Source: Clostridia bacterium (lineage in GTDB: Bacteria; Bacillota; Clostridia; RGIG6154). From it: a stretch of 64,000 bases of DNA. The position numbers and the translations under genes were made by a program. The notes beneath the pieces are model-generated. The model was not told the origin of the DNA. It did not search any database and saw only the letters and a list, made by a program, of their open reading frames with translations. Each line of letters opens with the position of its first letter. The stretch's first letter is position 1. Shown here one piece after another: positions 31,672-44,021 of the stretch. The stretch is taken from positions 62,001 through 126,000 of the forward strand of contig JAFQRW010000017.1 of the NCBI GenBank assembly GCA_017409875.1, given 5' to 3'.

Positions 31672-34431
31672 GTGATTGTCACGAATAACAATAATTTTTA
31701 CGAAACTCAAAGTAAAAGAAAAGCTGTTAAGACCTTGCTTGCAGTAATTTTTGCCGCAATCTTGTCAGTTTGCTGCTTTGTGGGCTTTAAAATTTTAATT
31801 GGCTATTATGAAGTAAGGGAAATAGGAGAGAATTTTGTAAGTTCGTATTTTAAAGATATTTTTGCTGAACTTATAGTTATAGCTTCCGTTGGCCTGATTT
31901 CTTTTTTGATTGCTGGTATAAATACATTTGTTGCAAAAAACAAGCTTGCTAAAATTGGCATAAACAATGAATTTACAGGCAAAAAGTTAAAAGGTTTCCT
32001 ACTTATTTTGGTTGCATCTTTGGCGTTTGCCGTTGTAACACAAGGGGATATGCATAAAGAATTGCTTCTTGCTTCAAACAGTGTTTCTTTTAATGTTTTA
32101 GATCCGATTTTTTATATGGATATTTCATATTACGTGTTCAGCCGCCCATTTATAATGTCAGTATTGGGGAATCTTTCACTTTTGATTGTATTTACAACTG
32201 TTTATGTGTTTGTACTGTATTGCTCGCAGTATTTAAAATTCGGCGAGCGCACTTTTGTGGATATGGCAAAAGAAAAAGGCATTGTAAGCCATATTGCATT
32301 TAATATTATCCTTCTTATGCTTATCGGTGCGTTTACAACAATTTTGCGTGCGCAGGATGTGTTAACAGCAGAATTTGCTGGTCTTACAGGCGGAGGATTT
32401 ACAGATGTAAATATTGTTTTGAACTATCACAGAACCGTTCCTGTTTTGATAGTAGTTGTGATGATACTTACTGTTGTGTTCTTAAAGAAAAATAAATTAA
32501 AGCATGCTCTTATTTGTGTTGCGTCTTATATAATTCTTTCGGTGCTTGTTAATTTTGTTGCTTTGGGAGTGGATGTCTTTTACGTATCACCCAATGAAAT
32601 CGCAGTAGAATCAAAATATATTCAGTATAATATGGACTACACCAAAAAGGCTTACGGATTGGATAATGTTATAGAAACTGAGTATGCAGTAAATACTTCT
32701 GCTACAAAAGAAAGTGTTCTTTCAAACGGCGATACTATCGAAAATATCAGAGTTATTGACTTTGCTGCAGCTCTTACTGCGACTAATCAGCTTCAGGGAT
32801 TAAGAAACTATTACGAGTTTAAGGATTTAGATGTTGGAGTTTACAATATTGACGGAAAAGAAAAAGCTGTTGCATTGGGCGCAAGAGAAATTCAAAAAGA
32901 AAATCTTGATAAATCAGCGAAAAATTATATTAATGAAAAATTCAGATATACTCATGGATATGGTGCAGTAATGATGTCTTTTAATCAGGTTACTCCGCAG
33001 GGTGAACCATACTATTATATTAAAGACATCAAACAGCCCAATTCAGGAAGTATACCTAAGATAAATCAACCCAGAGTGTATTTTGGACAACTTGACAATG
33101 ACGAGGTAATTGTTAACACAAAGACAAGAGAAATTGATTATTCAGAAGGCGAAATCGATAACGAATTTGACTATGATGGTGATGCCGGTATAAAGCTAAC
33201 CCCTTTAAACAGAGCATTGTTTGCGCTTAAAACCGGTGATTTCAGAATGATTATTGCAAATCAGATAACATCAGAAAGCAGACTTTTAATTAATACAAAT
33301 GTTTTGGACAGAGTTGAAAAAGTTGCACCATTTTTAAGTTTAAATCCTGACCCACAGCTTATCATTGATGATGACGGTAGTATGAAATGGGTGATTGACG
33401 GTTTTACGAAAACAGATAAATATCCATACGCTCAGATGACCGGCGAATATAACTATATAAGGAACTCTGTTAAAGCAGTGGTAGATGCGTATACCGGTAA
33501 AGTTAAAATTTATATTATTGATAAAACTGACCCTATTATTATGGCGTATAAGAGTATTTATCCTTACCTTTTTGCAGCAGAAGATATACCAGAGAGTATT
33601 ATGAGTAAAAGCGTATACCCTGAAACATTGTTTAATGTTCAGTGTAAAATTTATGCACAGTATCATACTCAAAGACCTGAGACCTTTTATAATAAAAACG
33701 ATCTTTATACCATTGCAAACGAAAAGTATGAGGATGAAATCAGACCGGTAAGTGCATACTATAATTTAATTCAGCTTGATGAATATAATAAAAATGGCTC
33801 AGAACTTGTACTTATGCTTCCATATACACTTTATAACAGAGAAAATATGGTGTCTTGGATTGCTGTAGGCAACAAGGGCGATAACTATGGCAAGTTTGTG
33901 TCTTATAAGTTCCCACAGAATATTAATATTTACGGACCACTTCAGATTGAAAATTTGATTGACAACGACCCTGAAATTTCAAAAGAGCTTACCTTATGGA
34001 ATTCGGGCGGCTCAAAAGTTATAAGAGGCAATTTGATGGTTATACCTGTAAACGGAACAATTCTTTATATAGAACCCGTTTATTTAACATCGGATAACCA
34101 GGCATCAATTCCTGCAGTAAAAAGAGTTATTGCAGCTTGCGGAAACAAGATTGTAATGGAAGAAACTATACAAAAAGCGCTGGCTAAACTTTTTGAAACA
34201 ACCATTAATATTGAAATCTCTGATGAAAATTATGTGCCTGAGGATATCGGTGATTCTGAAGATGAGATACCTTACGTAACAGATGAAACAATTCAAAAGA
34301 TTATTGAATCTTATGAAAAGTTAGAACAGTCAGCTTCTTCATCAGACTGGAAGAATTTTGGTGAATCTATGAACGAAATGAAAGAAGCAGTTTCAGAGCT
34401 TAAAGGAAAAAATGCACAAAATGAAGAATAG
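31672..34431 (+). CDS. UPF0182 family membrane protein
   Basis: A protein of about 919 residues. The first 300 residues contain about seven transmembrane helices; the rest is a large, probably external domain (YAQMTGEYNYIRNSVKAVVDAY, GEPYYYIKD) ending in an acidic, coiled tail. This matches UPF0182 in size and layout; its function is unknown. The start is uncertain: the open frame begins at GTG 31672, but that codon overlaps the ribosome site AAAAGGAG (31665-31672). An ACG at 31681 is at normal spacing and begins TNNNNFYE, so an ATG-to-ACG change or use of ATT 31675 are alternatives. It may be co-transcribed with ftsY, 17 bases upstream. Confidence 0.85.
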   Translation: MIVTNNNNFYETQSKRKAVKTLLAVIFAAILSVCCFVGFKILIGYYEVREIGENFVSSYFKDIFAELIVIASVGLISFLIAGINTFVAKNKLAKIGINNEFTGKKLKGFLLILVASLAFAVVTQGDMHKELLLASNSVSFNVLDPIFYMDISYYVFSRPFIMSVLGNLSLLIVFTTVYVFVLYCSQYLKFGERTFVDMAKEKGIVSHIAFNIILLMLIGAFTTILRAQDVLTAEFAGLTGGGFTDVNIVLNYHRTVPVLIVVVMILTVVFLKKNKLKHALICVASYIILSVLVNFVALGVDVFYVSPNEIAVESKYIQYNMDYTKKAYGLDNVIETEYAVNTSATKESVLSNGDTIENIRVIDFAAALTATNQLQGLRNYYEFKDLDVGVYNIDGKEKAVALGAREIQKENLDKSAKNYINEKFRYTHGYGAVMMSFNQVTPQGEPYYYIKDIKQPNSGSIPKINQPRVYFGQLDNDEVIVNTKTREIDYSEGEIDNEFDYDGDAGIKLTPLNRALFALKTGDFRMIIANQITSESRLLINTNVLDRVEKVAPFLSLNPDPQLIIDDDGSMKWVIDGFTKTDKYPYAQMTGEYNYIRNSVKAVVDAYTGKVKIYIIDKTDPIIMAYKSIYPYLFAAEDIPESIMSKSVYPETLFNVQCKIYAQYHTQRPETFYNKNDLYTIANEKYEDEIRPVSAYYNLIQLDEYNKNGSELVLMLPYTLYNRENMVSWIAVGNKGDNYGKFVSYKFPQNINIYGPLQIENLIDNDPEISKELTLWNSGGSKVIRGNLMVIPVNGTILYIEPVYLTSDNQASIPAVKRVIAACGNKIVMEETIQKALAKLFETTINIEISDENYVPEDIGDSEDEIPYVTDETIQKIIESYEKLEQSASSSDWKNFGESMNEMKEAVSELKGKNAQNEE

Positions 34432-36749: not shown

Positions 36750-37244
36750 ATGCATACGTTACTACAAGCCGGAAAAATCTGTAACACTCACGGGGTAAAA
36801 GGATTTGTGAAAATCATACCGTGGACAGACTTCCCCGAAGTTTTTGAAAACTTTTCGCACATTTTTGTCGAGGAAAAGAAATACAATATTGAAAAGGTGT
36901 CCTATAAGAAAGCAAGTGTTTTATTAAAGCTTTCCGGAGTGGATACTGTTTCTGATGCAGAAAAGCTGAAAGACAAAACTGTATATTGTACAAAAGATGA
37001 ACTGGGAGATTTGCCGCAAGATACTTATTTTGTGGCAGACCTCCTTGGTTGTTTTGTATACGATAATGAAAAGCTCATCGGCAAGCTGAAAGATATTATT
37101 TCAACAGGCAGCGCCGATGTTTATGAAATTGAAGACGAGAGCAGGAAATGTATTTATCTTCCTGCCATAAAAGAGAATATTTTAAGCATCGATATCAATG
37201 AGAAAAAGATTATGGTTTCAATTCCGGAGGGACTTTTGGAATGA
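36750..37244 (+). CDS. rimM: Ribosome maturation factor RimM
   Basis: 16S rRNA/30S maturation factor, 164 residues, with an N-terminal RimM barrel (AGKICNTHGVKGFVKIIPWTD) and a C-terminal PRC barrel (VYDNEKLIGKLKDI, YLPAIKENI). The start is ATG 36750, just after the khpA stop; a TTG at 36744 overlapping that stop is an alternative. No ribosome site is visible, so translation is probably coupled to khpA. The end overlaps trmD by four bases (ATGA). Confidence 0.93.
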   Translation: MHTLLQAGKICNTHGVKGFVKIIPWTDFPEVFENFSHIFVEEKKYNIEKVSYKKASVLLKLSGVDTVSDAEKLKDKTVYCTKDELGDLPQDTYFVADLLGCFVYDNEKLIGKLKDIISTGSADVYEIEDESRKCIYLPAIKENILSIDINEKKIMVSIPEGLLE

Positions 37245-38782
37245 AATTTGATATTTTAACACTTTTCCCTGAAATGATTAACGGCTTTTTAAGTGAAAGT
37301 ATTTTAGGAAGAGCTGTAAAAAACGGGGTTATTGATATTAAATGCACAAATATACGCGATTTTGCAAACGATAAGCATAATCGTGTTGATGATTACCCTT
37401 TTGGCGGGGGACTTGGTATGGTTATGCGTCCTCAGCCTGTTTTTGATACATACAATTATGTAACAAAAGACTGCAAAAATAAACCGTATACCGTTTATAT
37501 GTCACCAAAGGGAAAGGTGTTTAATCAGGAAGTTGCAAAAAATATGGCGACAAAAGACCATATTGTTATTATTTGCGGGCATTACGAGGGTGTTGACCAA
37601 AGAGTTATTGATGAAATTTGCGATGAAGAGATTTCTATTGGAGATTACGTTTTAACAGGTGGAGAGATTGCCGCGTGTGTTGTTTGTGATTCGGTTGCAA
37701 GGCTTGTGCCGGGAGTTTTATCTGAAAATAGTTCATTTGAACTTGAATCACATTATAACGGTCTGTTAGAACAACCGCAGTATACAAGACCCAGAGAGTT
37801 TAATGGAATTAATGTACCTGAAGTTTTACTGTCAGGACACAGTAAAAATATTTCTGAGTGGGAACATGAAAAATCTGTTGAAATAACCATGAAAATGCGT
37901 CCTGACCTTTGTGAAAAAAATGGGATTTGCGTTATAAAAAAGCCAAGCCCTAAAACTGATGCCAAAATCTTAGTGCTGGGTTTAGGCGATGCTGATGTTT
38001 TGAAAAAAATACAGACTGTAAAAATGCATTGCATAAAAAATGGTCTTAAAAATATAGATTTTAAGTATAAGGCTGATATTGATACAGTAAATTTTGATGA
38101 TTATGACGGTTTGTTTGCAGTTGCATGTTCTGAATATCAAGATTTTGAAATAAATACTCACATTCCTAAAATGATGTGCGGATATCAGAGCGATACTTTA
38201 AAAATTGCTGAAGTTTTTAGTTTCACACAAAAAAATGGTTTTGAAGTAACAGAAAATGTATTTTTAAGCGCATCTGAAATTGTTCAGGAGATATATGATT
38301 TTTCTGTTGCGTGTACTTTTAAAAATGCCGAAAATAAAAATTCTAAAAGCCTGATTAAACATATTTCAGGAGAAAATAGCAACAAGCTTTCAATAAAAAG
38401 CGGTATACCGCACGATTTATATGAAAATAACAGAGGAAAATTTCAAGGCTTTGAAAAGCAAGATTTAATGTTTGTTCAAACAGATTTTGATGCTAAAATC
38501 ACTGATGTTACTCTGGCAGCAACAAAGGATAGTAAAGTTTTTTTAGCTCAGGGAACACTTTTTAAAGTAAAGTCAAAAGCTTATGGAAATACTTATGTTT
38601 TGGCAGCAAAAGGACTTGGAAAGTTTTATCGATATGCTATTTTGGAAAATGACATTTCAGAGTTTGATGTTGTAACTGGATTTTTTGCAAAAAGGGCATT
38701 TAAAGTGGCAAAACTGCTTGATAATGAGGTTATTTGTTGTAGCGAAAAAACCTTTTACAAAGAAGAAAACCTTTTTAAATAG
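37241..38782 (+). CDS. trmD: tRNA (guanine-37-N1)-methyltransferase with a large C-terminal extension
   Basis: Methylates G37 next to the anticodon. Residues 1-228 are a complete TrmD: FDILTLFPEMI, PFGGGLGMVM, MSPKGKVFNQ, CGHYEGVDQR, IGDYVLTGGE and LLEQPQYTRP, including the SPOUT knot. Typical TrmD ends near residue 230-250, but this protein continues to 513. Residues about 240-330 could form a Rossmann-like or response-regulator-like fold (AKILVLGLGDADV, DDYDGLFAVACSE); the last 150 residues match nothing I recognise. The frame is uninterrupted and codon use looks like that of the neighbours. The overlap with rimM and the recJ start ten bases downstream show it is one operon gene, not two. 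Confidence 0.93.
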   Translation: MKFDILTLFPEMINGFLSESILGRAVKNGVIDIKCTNIRDFANDKHNRVDDYPFGGGLGMVMRPQPVFDTYNYVTKDCKNKPYTVYMSPKGKVFNQEVAKNMATKDHIVIICGHYEGVDQRVIDEICDEEISIGDYVLTGGEIAACVVCDSVARLVPGVLSENSSFELESHYNGLLEQPQYTRPREFNGINVPEVLLSGHSKNISEWEHEKSVEITMKMRPDLCEKNGICVIKKPSPKTDAKILVLGLGDADVLKKIQTVKMHCIKNGLKNIDFKYKADIDTVNFDDYDGLFAVACSEYQDFEINTHIPKMMCGYQSDTLKIAEVFSFTQKNGFEVTENVFLSASEIVQEIYDFSVACTFKNAENKNSKSLIKHISGENSNKLSIKSGIPHDLYENNRGKFQGFEKQDLMFVQTDFDAKITDVTLAATKDSKVFLAQGTLFKVKSKAYGNTYVLAAKGLGKFYRYAILENDISEFDVVTGFFAKRAFKVAKLLDNEVICCSEKTFYKEENLFK

Positions 38783-38791
38783 GAGTAAAAT

Positions 38792-40480
38792 ATGTCTGAC
38801 GCAAAGTGGATTGTTTCTCCTGTCCCGGACAAGGAGGCTATTGAAAAAGTAGCGAAAAAAAACAATGTAAGCCGTTTAATTGCGGCTATTTTGTGCGTGC
38901 GCGGTTTTACTTTTAGCGAGGCGGAAGATTATATTAATACTGATGCTCAGCGCTTGTTAGATCCATTTTTGCTTAAAGATATGGAAAAAGCAGTAAAGAG
39001 GATTAACACTGCGATTTCAGATAATGAGAAAATTGCAGTTTACGGAGATTATGATGTAGATGGTGTTACTGCTACAACTTTGATGTTAAGCTGTCTTAAA
39101 GAACTTGGAGCAGATGCTTCATTTTACATACCAAGTCGAGATAAAGAAGGGTACGGAATAAATAAAGAGTCTGTTGAGATGATAGCTTCTCATGGAGTTA
39201 GTCTTATCATTACGGTTGACTGCGGAATTACTGCTATTGATGAGTGTGAATATGCAAAAAGTCTTGGGGTTGATTTGATTATCACTGACCACCATGAATG
39301 CACTGATAAAGTGCCGGATGCAGTAGCTACTATTAATGCTAAACAGCATGACTGCAAATATCCGTTTAAGGATTTAGCAGGTGTAGGTGTTGCTTTTAAA
39401 TTGGCACAGGCGCTTCTTGGTGAGAAGTATAGTAATGAAGAAATTTTAGATAAATATTCACAGTTTGTGACAATAGGATCAATCGCTGATATAGTACCGG
39501 TTTTAGGTGAAAACAGAATAATCTGTAAGCACGGACTCAAAAAGCTTTCAGAAACCAAAACGCCTGGGATAAATGCACTTTTTAATGTTTCGGGTGTTGA
39601 AAAAAGTGAAATAGATTCTTTTAAGATTGGATTTGCCATTGCTCCGAGAATTAACGCAGCAGGCAGAATTGGCGGTGCAGATAAAGCCGTTGAGCTGTTT
39701 TTAACCAAAGATATCAATGTTGCCGATAAAATTGCAAAAGAGCTTGATGACAGCAATACTATCCGTCAGAAAATTGAAGCTGAAATTTTCAAAGAGGCGG
39801 AAGACCAGCTTTTAAGTAAGTTCAGCGATAATAAAATTGCAGTTTTATCTGATACAAAGTGGCATCACGGTGTGGTGGGAATTGTATCTTCAAGACTTGC
39901 AAAAAAGTATATGAGACCTTGTATTTTAATTTCTGAAGGCCCGGATGGTAATTATAAAGGCTCAGGAAGAAGTATAGAAGGATTTTCACTATATAGTGCG
40001 TTGGATGCTTCTAAGGACACGCTTATATCTTTCGGGGGCCACGAGCTTGCAGCAGGTATTGTGATTGCAAGGGATAAAATTGATGATTTCAGAAATAAGA
40101 TTAATAAATATGCAGAAAATAATTTTAATGAAGAATTGACATGCCGTAAATTTGTGGCAGATTTAGAACTCAGAGAAAGACATCTTAATATAGATGTTGC
40201 CAAAGAGCTTAGTGTTCTGCAGCCGTTTGGAACCAACAACAATCAGCCTGTGTTTTATATTGAAAAACTTCTGGTTTTAAAAGTAAACAGAATAGGTTCA
40301 GCAAAGCAACATTTAAGATTGACTTTAAAAAAAGGTAATGTCATTATAGATGCAATCGCATTTGGATTTGGTGAGTATAATGTGTCTTTTAATGATACGA
40401 TTAATGTGATGTGTAATCTTGATATTAATACATTTAGAAATATTAAGACAGTCCAACTTAAGATTTTAGATATTAAATAG
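38792..40480 (+). CDS. recJ: Single-strand DNA exonuclease RecJ
   Basis: 5'-3' exonuclease of recombination and mismatch repair, 562 residues, DHH superfamily. Motifs: VYGDYDVDGVTATTLM, TVDCGITAIDE, DLIITDHHE, GVGVAFKLAQAL, then the DHHA1 region with SFGGHELAAGI and a C-terminal OB fold. AGGAG sits eight bases before the ATG. Here recJ directly precedes relA. Confidence 0.94.
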   Translation: MSDAKWIVSPVPDKEAIEKVAKKNNVSRLIAAILCVRGFTFSEAEDYINTDAQRLLDPFLLKDMEKAVKRINTAISDNEKIAVYGDYDVDGVTATTLMLSCLKELGADASFYIPSRDKEGYGINKESVEMIASHGVSLIITVDCGITAIDECEYAKSLGVDLIITDHHECTDKVPDAVATINAKQHDCKYPFKDLAGVGVAFKLAQALLGEKYSNEEILDKYSQFVTIGSIADIVPVLGENRIICKHGLKKLSETKTPGINALFNVSGVEKSEIDSFKIGFAIAPRINAAGRIGGADKAVELFLTKDINVADKIAKELDDSNTIRQKIEAEIFKEAEDQLLSKFSDNKIAVLSDTKWHHGVVGIVSSRLAKKYMRPCILISEGPDGNYKGSGRSIEGFSLYSALDASKDTLISFGGHELAAGIVIARDKIDDFRNKINKYAENNFNEELTCRKFVADLELRERHLNIDVAKELSVLQPFGTNNNQPVFYIEKLLVLKVNRIGSAKQHLRLTLKKGNVIIDAIAFGFGEYNVSFNDTINVMCNLDINTFRNIKTVQLKILDIK

Positions 40481-40491
40481 GGGGTGATTTA

Positions 40492-42663
40492 ATGAGCCAG
40501 GACTATCAGAAACTACTTGAAAAAATTAAAAAATATAATCCTAATGTTGATGAAAATCTTTTAAAAGGTGCGTATGACTACGCCCGTGAGGCTCATGGAA
40601 ATCAACTTCGAAAATCAGGAGAATTGTTTTTCAGCCATCCGTATGAGGTTGCAAATATTTTAGCTGAACTTGAAATGGATTGTGAGTCTATTGCTGCAGG
40701 ATTGCTGCACGATGTAATTGAAGATACTGAGCATAGCCAGCGTGAAATAAGAGAGAAATTCGGCGAAGATGTTGCTATGCTTGTTGAAGGTGTTACAAAG
40801 CTTGAGAAAATTCCGTTTACAAGCAAAGAACAACAACAAATTGAGAATTTAAGAAAAATGTTTCTTGCTATGGCAAGCGATGTAAGAGTTATAATTATAA
40901 AGCTTGCTGACAGACTTCATAATATGAGAACTTTAAAAAGTATGTCTGATGAAAAGCAGCGCGAGAAGGCAAAAGAAACATTAGATGTATTTGCTCCTCT
41001 TGCACACCGTCTTGGTATTTCAAGAATAAAGTGGGAACTTGAAGATCTGGCACTCAGGTACTTAGACCCAATCGCTTATTATGAGATTGTAGAAAGCATA
41101 AGTCAGAAGAAAAATGAACGTGACCAGTATATTTCAGACGTTATTTCTTCGGTTACCGATAAAATAAAAGAGCTTGGAATAACAGCTCAGGTTATGGGAA
41201 GAGCAAAGCATTTTTACAGTATTTTCAGAAAAATGTATGCCCAAAACAAAGGTATTGATGAAATATATGACCTCTTTGCAGTCAGGGTTATTGTAAATTC
41301 CATAGCAGAATGCTATGCTGTTTTAGGGCTTGTGCACGAATCATACAAGCCAATTCCCGGCAGATTCAAAGACTATATTGCAATGCCGAAGCCCAATATG
41401 TATCAATCGCTTCATACTACCGTAATCGGACCAAACGGAAGTCCGTTTGAAATACAGATAAGAACATGGGATATGCATCGTACAGCGGAGTATGGTATTG
41501 CTGCTCACTGGAAGTATAAGGAAGGAAATTTTGCCGATGGCAAATTAGACGATAAACTTGAATGGATCAGGAAAATGCTTGATGTCCAGAATGATTTGGG
41601 CACAGGTGATACTGAAGAGTTTATGAAGACATTAAAAATCGATTTGTTTTCTGATGAGGTTTTTGTATTTACTCCACACGGTGATGTTATAAATCTGCCT
41701 GCAGGGTCATGCCCGATAGATTTTGCATACGCAATACACAGCGAAGTCGGAAATAAAATGATTGGTGCAAAAATCAACGGGAAAATCACAACTATTGACC
41801 AATTGCTCCAGACAGGCGATATTGTTGAGGTGCTTACTACCCCAACATCACGTGGACCGAGTATGGATTGGCTTAAAATTGTAAAAACATCTCAGGCAAG
41901 AAACAAAATAAATCAATGGTTTAAGGCTCATAACAGGGATGCAAACATCATAAAAGGCAAAGAAGTCGTGGATAAGGAAATGCGAAAAGCTGAAATTCCT
42001 AATCTTAACGAGTACAAAGAAAAGTTTGCAGACCTTGCCATGAAGAAGTTTAACATTAAAACTGTTGACGATATGTATGCAGCCATTGGTTTTGAAGGTC
42101 CGATAGGTATTAAAATTTTCAAAAAGCTTCAGGATGAAATTAAGAAAATGACAATTTCGGGAAGCGAAACAAAGCCAAAAATTACTGGAAGCAGTTCTTA
42201 TTCAAAACATTCATCTAACGGTATTATCGTTAAAGGAATAGAAAACTGTCTGATAAGACTTTCAAAATGTTGCAATCCGGTTCCGGGGGATGAAATTGTA
42301 GGATATATAACAAGAGGAAGAGGTGTGTCTGTTCACAGGAAAGACTGTGTTAATGTGACTAATGCTACAGAAGAAGAAAAAAACCGACTTATTGAAGTTA
42401 AGTGGGACGAAACCTTTAATAGCGCTTTTTCATCACATTTGGTAATTACTGCAATTAACAGAAATAATCTTTTGCTTGAAGTGTCGGCAGAACTTTCAAA
42501 CATTCATGTTCCATTAAGCGGAATTAATGCAAGAGTTTTAAAAGACGGGCTTTGTGTAATGGATCTAACCGTTGACGTAATTAACGGACAGCAACTTGAC
42601 GCTGTTATAAAAAAACTAATGAATATATCAGGAGTTTTTGAGGTAAAAAGAACAAATAAATAG
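40492..42663 (+). CDS. relA: Bifunctional (p)ppGpp synthetase/hydrolase
   Basis: Stringent response enzyme (RSH family), 723 residues. HD hydrolase domain with [12 protein letters not shown] and [15 protein letters not shown], so hydrolysis is likely active; synthetase domain with [13 protein letters not shown] and [21 protein letters not shown] in sequence; then TGS ([14 protein letters not shown]), a helical zinc-finger-like part ([20 protein letters not shown]) and a C-terminal ACT domain. GGGGGTGA precedes the ATG. Although annotated relA by convention, it is of the dual Rel type. Confidence 0.95.
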
Positions 42664-42680
42664 TAAAAGGGGTTGTAAAA

Positions 42681-44021
42681 ATGAAGTTTGATTACAAAAA
42701 AGCAGATTTTGCATTATCAGAAAAAGAAATGCAGGAAATGAAAGAAAAAGTTGAAAAGGCTCATAAAACACTTCATGAAAAAACAGGTGAAGGAAACGAC
42801 TTTTTAGGTTGGCTTGATTTGCCTGAAAACTACGATAAACAGGAATTTGAAAGGGTAAAAAAGGCAGCTGAAAAAATAAAAGAAAACAGCGATGTTTTAA
42901 TAGTTATAGGAATTGGCGGTTCATATCTTGGTGCAAAAGCAGGACTTTCAATGCTTACACATACTTTTTATGATGCACTTGAAAAGGACAAAAGAAAAAC
43001 ACCGTCAGTATTGTTTGCGGGCAACTCTATAAGCTCAACATATCTTTGTGATTTAATTGAGCATCTGGGTGATAAAGATTTTTCCGTTAACGTTATCTCA
43101 AAATCAGGAACAACTACAGAACCTGCTATTGCATTCAGAGTTTTCAAAGAGCTTTTGGAAAATAAATATGGAAAAGACGGTGCAAAAGAAAGAATTTTTG
43201 CCACAACAGACGGCAAAAGAGGAGCGCTTAAACAGCTTTGTGATGCTGAAGGCTATGAAACATTTGTAATTCCAGATGATGTAGGCGGAAGATTTTCAGT
43301 TTTAACCCCTGTTGGACTTTTGCCTTTAGCTGTTGGGGGTGCTGATATTGATAAAATAATGGAAGGCGCTCAAAAAGCAAGAAACGATTTTAAAGAGTGT
43401 GACCTTGATAAGAATATTTGCTATCAGTATGCGGCTGCCAGAAATGTTCTTTATGAAAAAGGTTATACAACCGAAATAATGGTTAATTATGAACCGAGTA
43501 TGCATTATTTTTCAGAATGGTGGAAACAGCTTTACGGTGAAAGTGAAGGCAAAGACAATAAGGGTATTTTCCCGGCATCAGTTGAATTTTCAACAGACCT
43601 TCATTCACTTGGACAATACATTCAGGACGGCAGAAGAAACCTTTTTGAAACAGTTATCAATATAGAAGAAACCAAAAAGTCATTTGTTATCAAAGAGGAC
43701 AAAGATAATATTGACGGTCTTAATTTCTTAGCAGGAAAAACTCTTGACTATGTTAATAAAAAAGCGTTTGAGGGCACACTGCTTGCGCATACTGACGGAA
43801 AAGCACCTAATTTTGTAATTAGTGTTCCAAAAGCAGATGACGAAAACTTTGGTTATTTGGTTTATTTCTTTGAAAAAGCGTGTGCAATCAGCGGATATAT
43901 CTTGGGCGTTAATCCTTTTAACCAGCCCGGTGTTGAGGCATATAAAAAGAATATGTTTGCACTTTTGGGTAAGCCCGGATATGAGGATATGAAAAAAGAA
44001 TTGGAGAATAGATTAAAATAA
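42681..44021 (+). CDS. pgi: Glucose-6-phosphate isomerase
   Basis: Interconverts glucose-6-phosphate and fructose-6-phosphate, 446 residues, the short bacterial form. Conserved stretches are [63 protein letters not shown], the [14 protein letters not shown] region and [18 protein letters not shown] lies eight bases before the ATG. It provides fructose-6-phosphate, the product also made by nagB at 50127. Confidence 0.96.

Follow-up and report, generated by a model that had tools for sequence, protein, structure and literature searches.

A trmD gene in a family of Clostridia with a C-terminal tail that is probably a vestigial, non-catalytic L-fucose isomerase-like protein

In L-fucose isomerase (FucI), the N1 domain takes part in hexamer assembly and in recognizing the substrate. 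The metal ligands, Glu337, Asp361, and His528, lie in the N2 and C domains, and each pocket combines N2 and C from one subunit with N1 from a second (PMC6894278). For TrmD, the tRNA (guanosine(37)-N1)-methyltransferase, a fusion with a COG4752 SPOUT domain at the TrmD C-terminus has been published (PMC1829167). No published TrmD-fucose isomerase fusion was found in the open-access literature, as judged by title and abstract. Domain fusions to TrmD and to SPOUT enzymes are already known, and TrmD with an apparently decayed fucose-isomerase tail is a new domain architecture.

The window, i.e., the whole stretch of 64,000 nucleotides that was analyzed, comes from a Clostridia bacterium whose source assembly is 1.46 Mb in length and 98% complete. 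It holds a single stop-free open frame (37241-38782, + strand, 513 aa) that encodes a complete TrmD followed by about 285 further residues. The features of the fused gene are as follows.

37241 to 37924, + strand: TrmD, tRNA (guanosine(37)-N1)-methyltransferase domain, residues 1-228 (NF000648, PF01746, TrmD tree)
37925 to 37954, + strand: probable linker, residues 229-238, leading to the isomerase-like start (from the global alignment)
37955 to 38323, + strand: most likely an N1-like alpha/beta domain, residues 239-361, weak in the window protein alone (global profile score, sister-genus tails, low-confidence model)
38324 to 38341, + strand: junction with N2 missing, residues 362-367 (profile positions ~172-303 are left unmatched between the aligned N1-like and C-like parts)
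38342 to 38779, + strand: degenerate L-fucose isomerase C-terminal-like domain, residues 368-513, with the active-site loop and metal ligands lost (hmmsearch, hhalign, phmmer)
38780 to 38782, + strand: TAG stop codon ending the fused gene (recJ begins at 38792)

The TrmD part matches the curated model NF000648 over residues 1-223 (309 bits, cut-off 220, 1.1e-92) and Pfam PF01746 at 6e-60, with homology spanning residues 1-226, the whole length of the family, and both knot motifs, GHYEGVDQR and GDYVLTGGE, can be read in the translation. The earlier note on this DNA had placed a complete TrmD in the first 228 residues, and these full-length matches bear it out. The gene is like TrmD (NF000648 / PF01746 / COG0336) in its full-model match and its operon place after rpsP-KH-rimM, and unlike ordinary TrmD in its C-terminal tail: the normal TrmDs of the class that were read stop about 5-50 residues past the 'RPDL' motif, whereas the fused one runs on for about 285. 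Predicted from what is established for the family, the TrmD part is expected to form m1G37 as usual. The genes after trmD are recJ, rel, and pgi both in the window (38792-44021) and in the related genome G003, and rplS of the window's genome lies elsewhere (G000:C22:2439); the compared loci of genus g2 (L060-L062) keep the usual trmD-rplS-lepB-ylqF-rnhB order. Just upstream of ylxM-ffh, a gene for a large UPF0182-like membrane protein (named by eye) occupies window positions 31672-34431 and is the same neighbor in G003 and G001.

At the tail's own base composition, 280 stop-free codons would arise by chance with a probability of ~5e-12; its codon usage scores 0.26 log-units per codon against 0.24 +/- 0.04 for the neighboring genes, and the five other frames of the region score far lower. 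No convincing Shine-Dalgarno sequence was seen by eye in the 20 bases upstream of any in-frame ATG, GTG, or TTG that could give the tail an internal start, and no known RNA families were found in or near the fused gene.

The order is represented by six genomes in all, from one family, and TrmD is in the data for three of the other five. All three of these TrmDs carry tails, in frames of 377 aa (G004), 375 aa (G001), and 471 aa (G003), as expected of a true fusion, which the earlier note had claimed. In a survey of the class, 373 of the 391 genomes drawn had a match, and among the approximately 150 matches listed, the same tail was not found outside the family. The L-fucose isomerase-like proteins to which the tail is compared below are separately encoded in many other Clostridia. 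In the tree of the TrmD domain, the four tailed TrmDs form one clade (support 94/84) with G003 outermost and the window protein sister to genus g2, i.e., G001 and G004 (88/66). Because the four tailed TrmDs form one clade, a single gain of the tail in the family ancestor would be the simplest account. TrmD identity between genera is ~59-65%, and the tails are hardly alignable, with a best between-genus Z of 3.7 and almost no conserved residues; the tails of genus g2 comprise the N1-like part only, with the C-part absent. By these comparisons, the tail diverges much faster than TrmD, yet it is open and codon-typical.

Searched alone, the tail (residues 233-513) gave no significant match to Pfam, NCBIfam, or PDB sequences, and no match to PF02952 up to E 10. 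Its best matches in 60 relatives were isomerase-like ORFs of about 495-510 aa. One of these, L005, matches PF02952 (Fucose_iso_C) at 6.5e-25, unlike the tail, which is below detection by that model; L005 reaches 77 bits against the sulfoquinovose isomerase model (cut-off 700), a distant relation only. A profile built from 24 isomerase-like proteins aligned to residues 368-513 in two collinear pieces, profile positions 304-345 and 394-493, at 38.4-39.8 bits (hmmsearch). Comparison of the C-part with the isomerase-like proteins using hhalign gave P 9e-8, and phmmer, run on 39 sequences, matched it to L005 at 3.3e-13. Conversely, a search of the window's own genome with the isomerase-like profile hit the fused tail and nothing else (E 0.028). 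The motifs 'VPYDIYES' and 'SRVYG...FY' of the C-part are common to the window protein and G003. These sequence comparisons identify residues 368-513 as the C-terminal domain of an L-fucose isomerase-like protein. The earlier note had described an unrecognized end; family libraries do fail to match it, but its origin is now recognized (38 bits, P 9e-8).

Other searches concerned the wider family. A PF02952 search of the window's own genome returned only a separate 602-aa gene, a true L-fucose isomerase adjoining transketolase- and sugar-kinase-like genes. The L-fucose isomerase-like family (L002-L017, L087-L096; ~495 aa) is widespread in Clostridia and has a near-invariant MGFHCGNT motif; neither a PDB chain, searched by profile, nor a close curated model was found for it. 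Neither the tail nor the isomerase-like protein had relatives in scans of viral contigs. Pfam matches to Omega-toxin, MoCF, and similar families (E 0.02-1) were at chance level, under the cut-offs, and were rejected.

The middle part was compared with the N1 domain of the isomerase-like proteins. A global alignment sets residue 239 opposite 'PEVKL', the start of those proteins, and in global profile alignment, residues 239-361 of the window protein outscored 233 of the 234 window-derived decoys and all but one of 200 shuffles. The middle part of G001 scored above all decoys and shuffles, and that of G003, which is much diverged, gave a weak N1 match (18 of 234 decoys as good). The G001 and G004 tails aligned with 127 columns of the isomerase-like profile (positions 5-171), covering all of N1 and nothing else, with a score of 30.0 against 18.5 for the best shuffle (0 of 100 as good). 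Taken by itself, the window protein (residues 226-368) had no significant local hhalign match to the profile: 12 of 100 shuffles did as well, and its weak match lay at the collinear place, the helix closing N1. Single-sequence structure models of the whole protein and of the middle part reached pLDDT 32 and 38, too poor to confirm either fold; in the low-confidence middle-part model, there is a strand-helix-strand-strand arrangement and a final helix, which is compatible with N1 and no proof of it. Residues 239-361 are most likely the N1 domain of an L-fucose isomerase-like protein, in keeping with the earlier suggestion of a possibly Rossmann-like part insofar as the middle looks alpha/beta. 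In the window protein itself, this homology is borderline, a weaker case than the fusion, its distribution, the C-domain homology, and the loss of catalytic residues.

The tail is like the L-fucose isomerase-like proteins (COG2407-type, PF02952, ~495 aa) in its C-terminal domain and in having an N1-like domain in the right order, and it differs from them in what has been lost as well as in being fused to TrmD. The N2 domain (~130 residues in the isomerase-like proteins) is absent, and with it the region of Glu337. The LLDINN stretch that holds Asp361 reads KLSIKS, with Ser at the Asp361 position, the MGFHCGNT loop and the next ~50 residues are mostly deleted, and the PHH motif at the His528 position is replaced by a stretch with no His. 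Across the isomerase-like set, D319, H349, H451, and H452 (L005 numbering) are invariant. With N2 and all three metal ligands lost, activity of the tail as an isomerase of the L-fucose type is excluded on sequence grounds. Since the window protein and G003 both lack N2, we infer that its loss most likely preceded the split of the family and that the C-part was lost later in genus g2.

Additional TrmD frames of more than 320 aa were noted among the class matches listed. A 641-aa ORF (L063 in G019) has TrmD fused in frame with a complete class-V aminotransferase that is cysteine desulfurase-like (PF00266, 2.2e-71), and a 618-aa ORF (L065 in G027) joins TrmD, with a low-complexity insert within the TrmD part, to a tyrosine phosphatase domain (PF13350, 1.3e-54). 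Two more, L064 (G039) and L086 (G094), have tails that, judged by eye, resemble GNAT-like acetyltransferases; Pfam gave no match for the G039 tail. The window TrmD is like these and the COG4752 SPOUT fusion in carrying a second domain in frame at the C-terminus of a complete TrmD, and differs in that its partner appears to be a decayed enzyme.

Taken over all the sequence evidence, the fused gene probably encodes a TrmD carrying a vestigial, non-catalytic L-fucose isomerase-like protein as its C-terminal tail. That two genes were joined through a sequencing or assembly error, the objection foreseen in the earlier note, has a negligible probability: the source assembly is fragmented (23 contigs), but codon usage is unbroken into the tail, and the reading is rejected because the extended frames of the three relatives come from separate assemblies. 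It is improbable, too, that only the C-part is a fucose-isomerase remnant and that residues 239-361 are an unrelated alpha/beta domain joined separately. The insignificant local comparison of the window's middle part and the g2 tails, which have this part only, would fit such a composite origin, whereas the end-to-end N1 match of the g2 middle part, the decoy ranking of the window's own, and an order and spacing as in the isomerase argue against it.

Other roles for the tail have also to be weighed. It is doubtful that it is a functional ligand-binding or regulatory domain that retains the sugar-isomerase scaffold, binds a sugar or some other metabolite, and tunes TrmD activity to carbon supply. 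The N1+C form has been kept open with normal codon usage in at least two genera, and there is precedent, in that catalytically dead enzyme domains can act as sensors, but the tails share almost no conserved residues and genus g2 dispenses with the C-part entirely. N2 and the conserved pocket loops are also gone, and the FucI pocket needs N2, C, and N1 (PMC6894278). An RNA- or ribosome-binding accessory domain for tRNA recognition or quality control appears very unlikely, even though many SPOUT methyltransferases bear RNA-binding domains (PMC1829167) and the window protein's C-part has a basic pI of 9.1. The tail is homologous to a sugar isomerase and to no RNA-binding family (none was matched in Pfam or NCBIfam), its N1-like part is slightly acidic (17 K/R against 20 D/E), and whole-tail pI values of 8.1, 4.9, 8.6, and 9.2 among relatives indicate that net charge is unconserved. 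The earlier note's proposal that the tail acts in tRNA quality control, binds RNA, or regulates the SRP-ribosome operon is unsupported in light of the sugar-enzyme origin, the slightly acidic N1-like part, and the unconserved charge.

For the vestigial isomerase as the preferred explanation, we infer the order of events and the role of the tail as follows. In the family ancestor, the trmD frame would have been joined to a downstream isomerase-like gene near the start of that gene; no intact TrmD-isomerase fusion was found. The isomerase part would then have lost N2 and the active site, leaving the N1-like and C-like parts, with a further reduction to the N1-like part in genus g2. The tail would now be a fast-evolving, non-catalytic appendage on an active-looking TrmD. 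It would most likely be either a structural appendage, perhaps for self-association or stabilization of the protein (N1 contributes to the hexamer in true isomerases), or a nearly passive passenger under weak constraint. There is a small chance that the former isomerase is a working regulatory or oligomerization module of TrmD specific to this family.

With this identification, annotators can name a tail that family libraries do not see. Were the tail such a module, a sugar-enzyme scaffold would be tuning the enzyme that guards the reading frame, and any regulation of TrmD by it would connect sugar metabolism with reading-frame maintenance in an unexpected way. On a small scale, the fused gene would show an essential, very conserved tRNA enzyme gaining a metabolic enzyme by fusion, with the activity then lost and the frame kept open.
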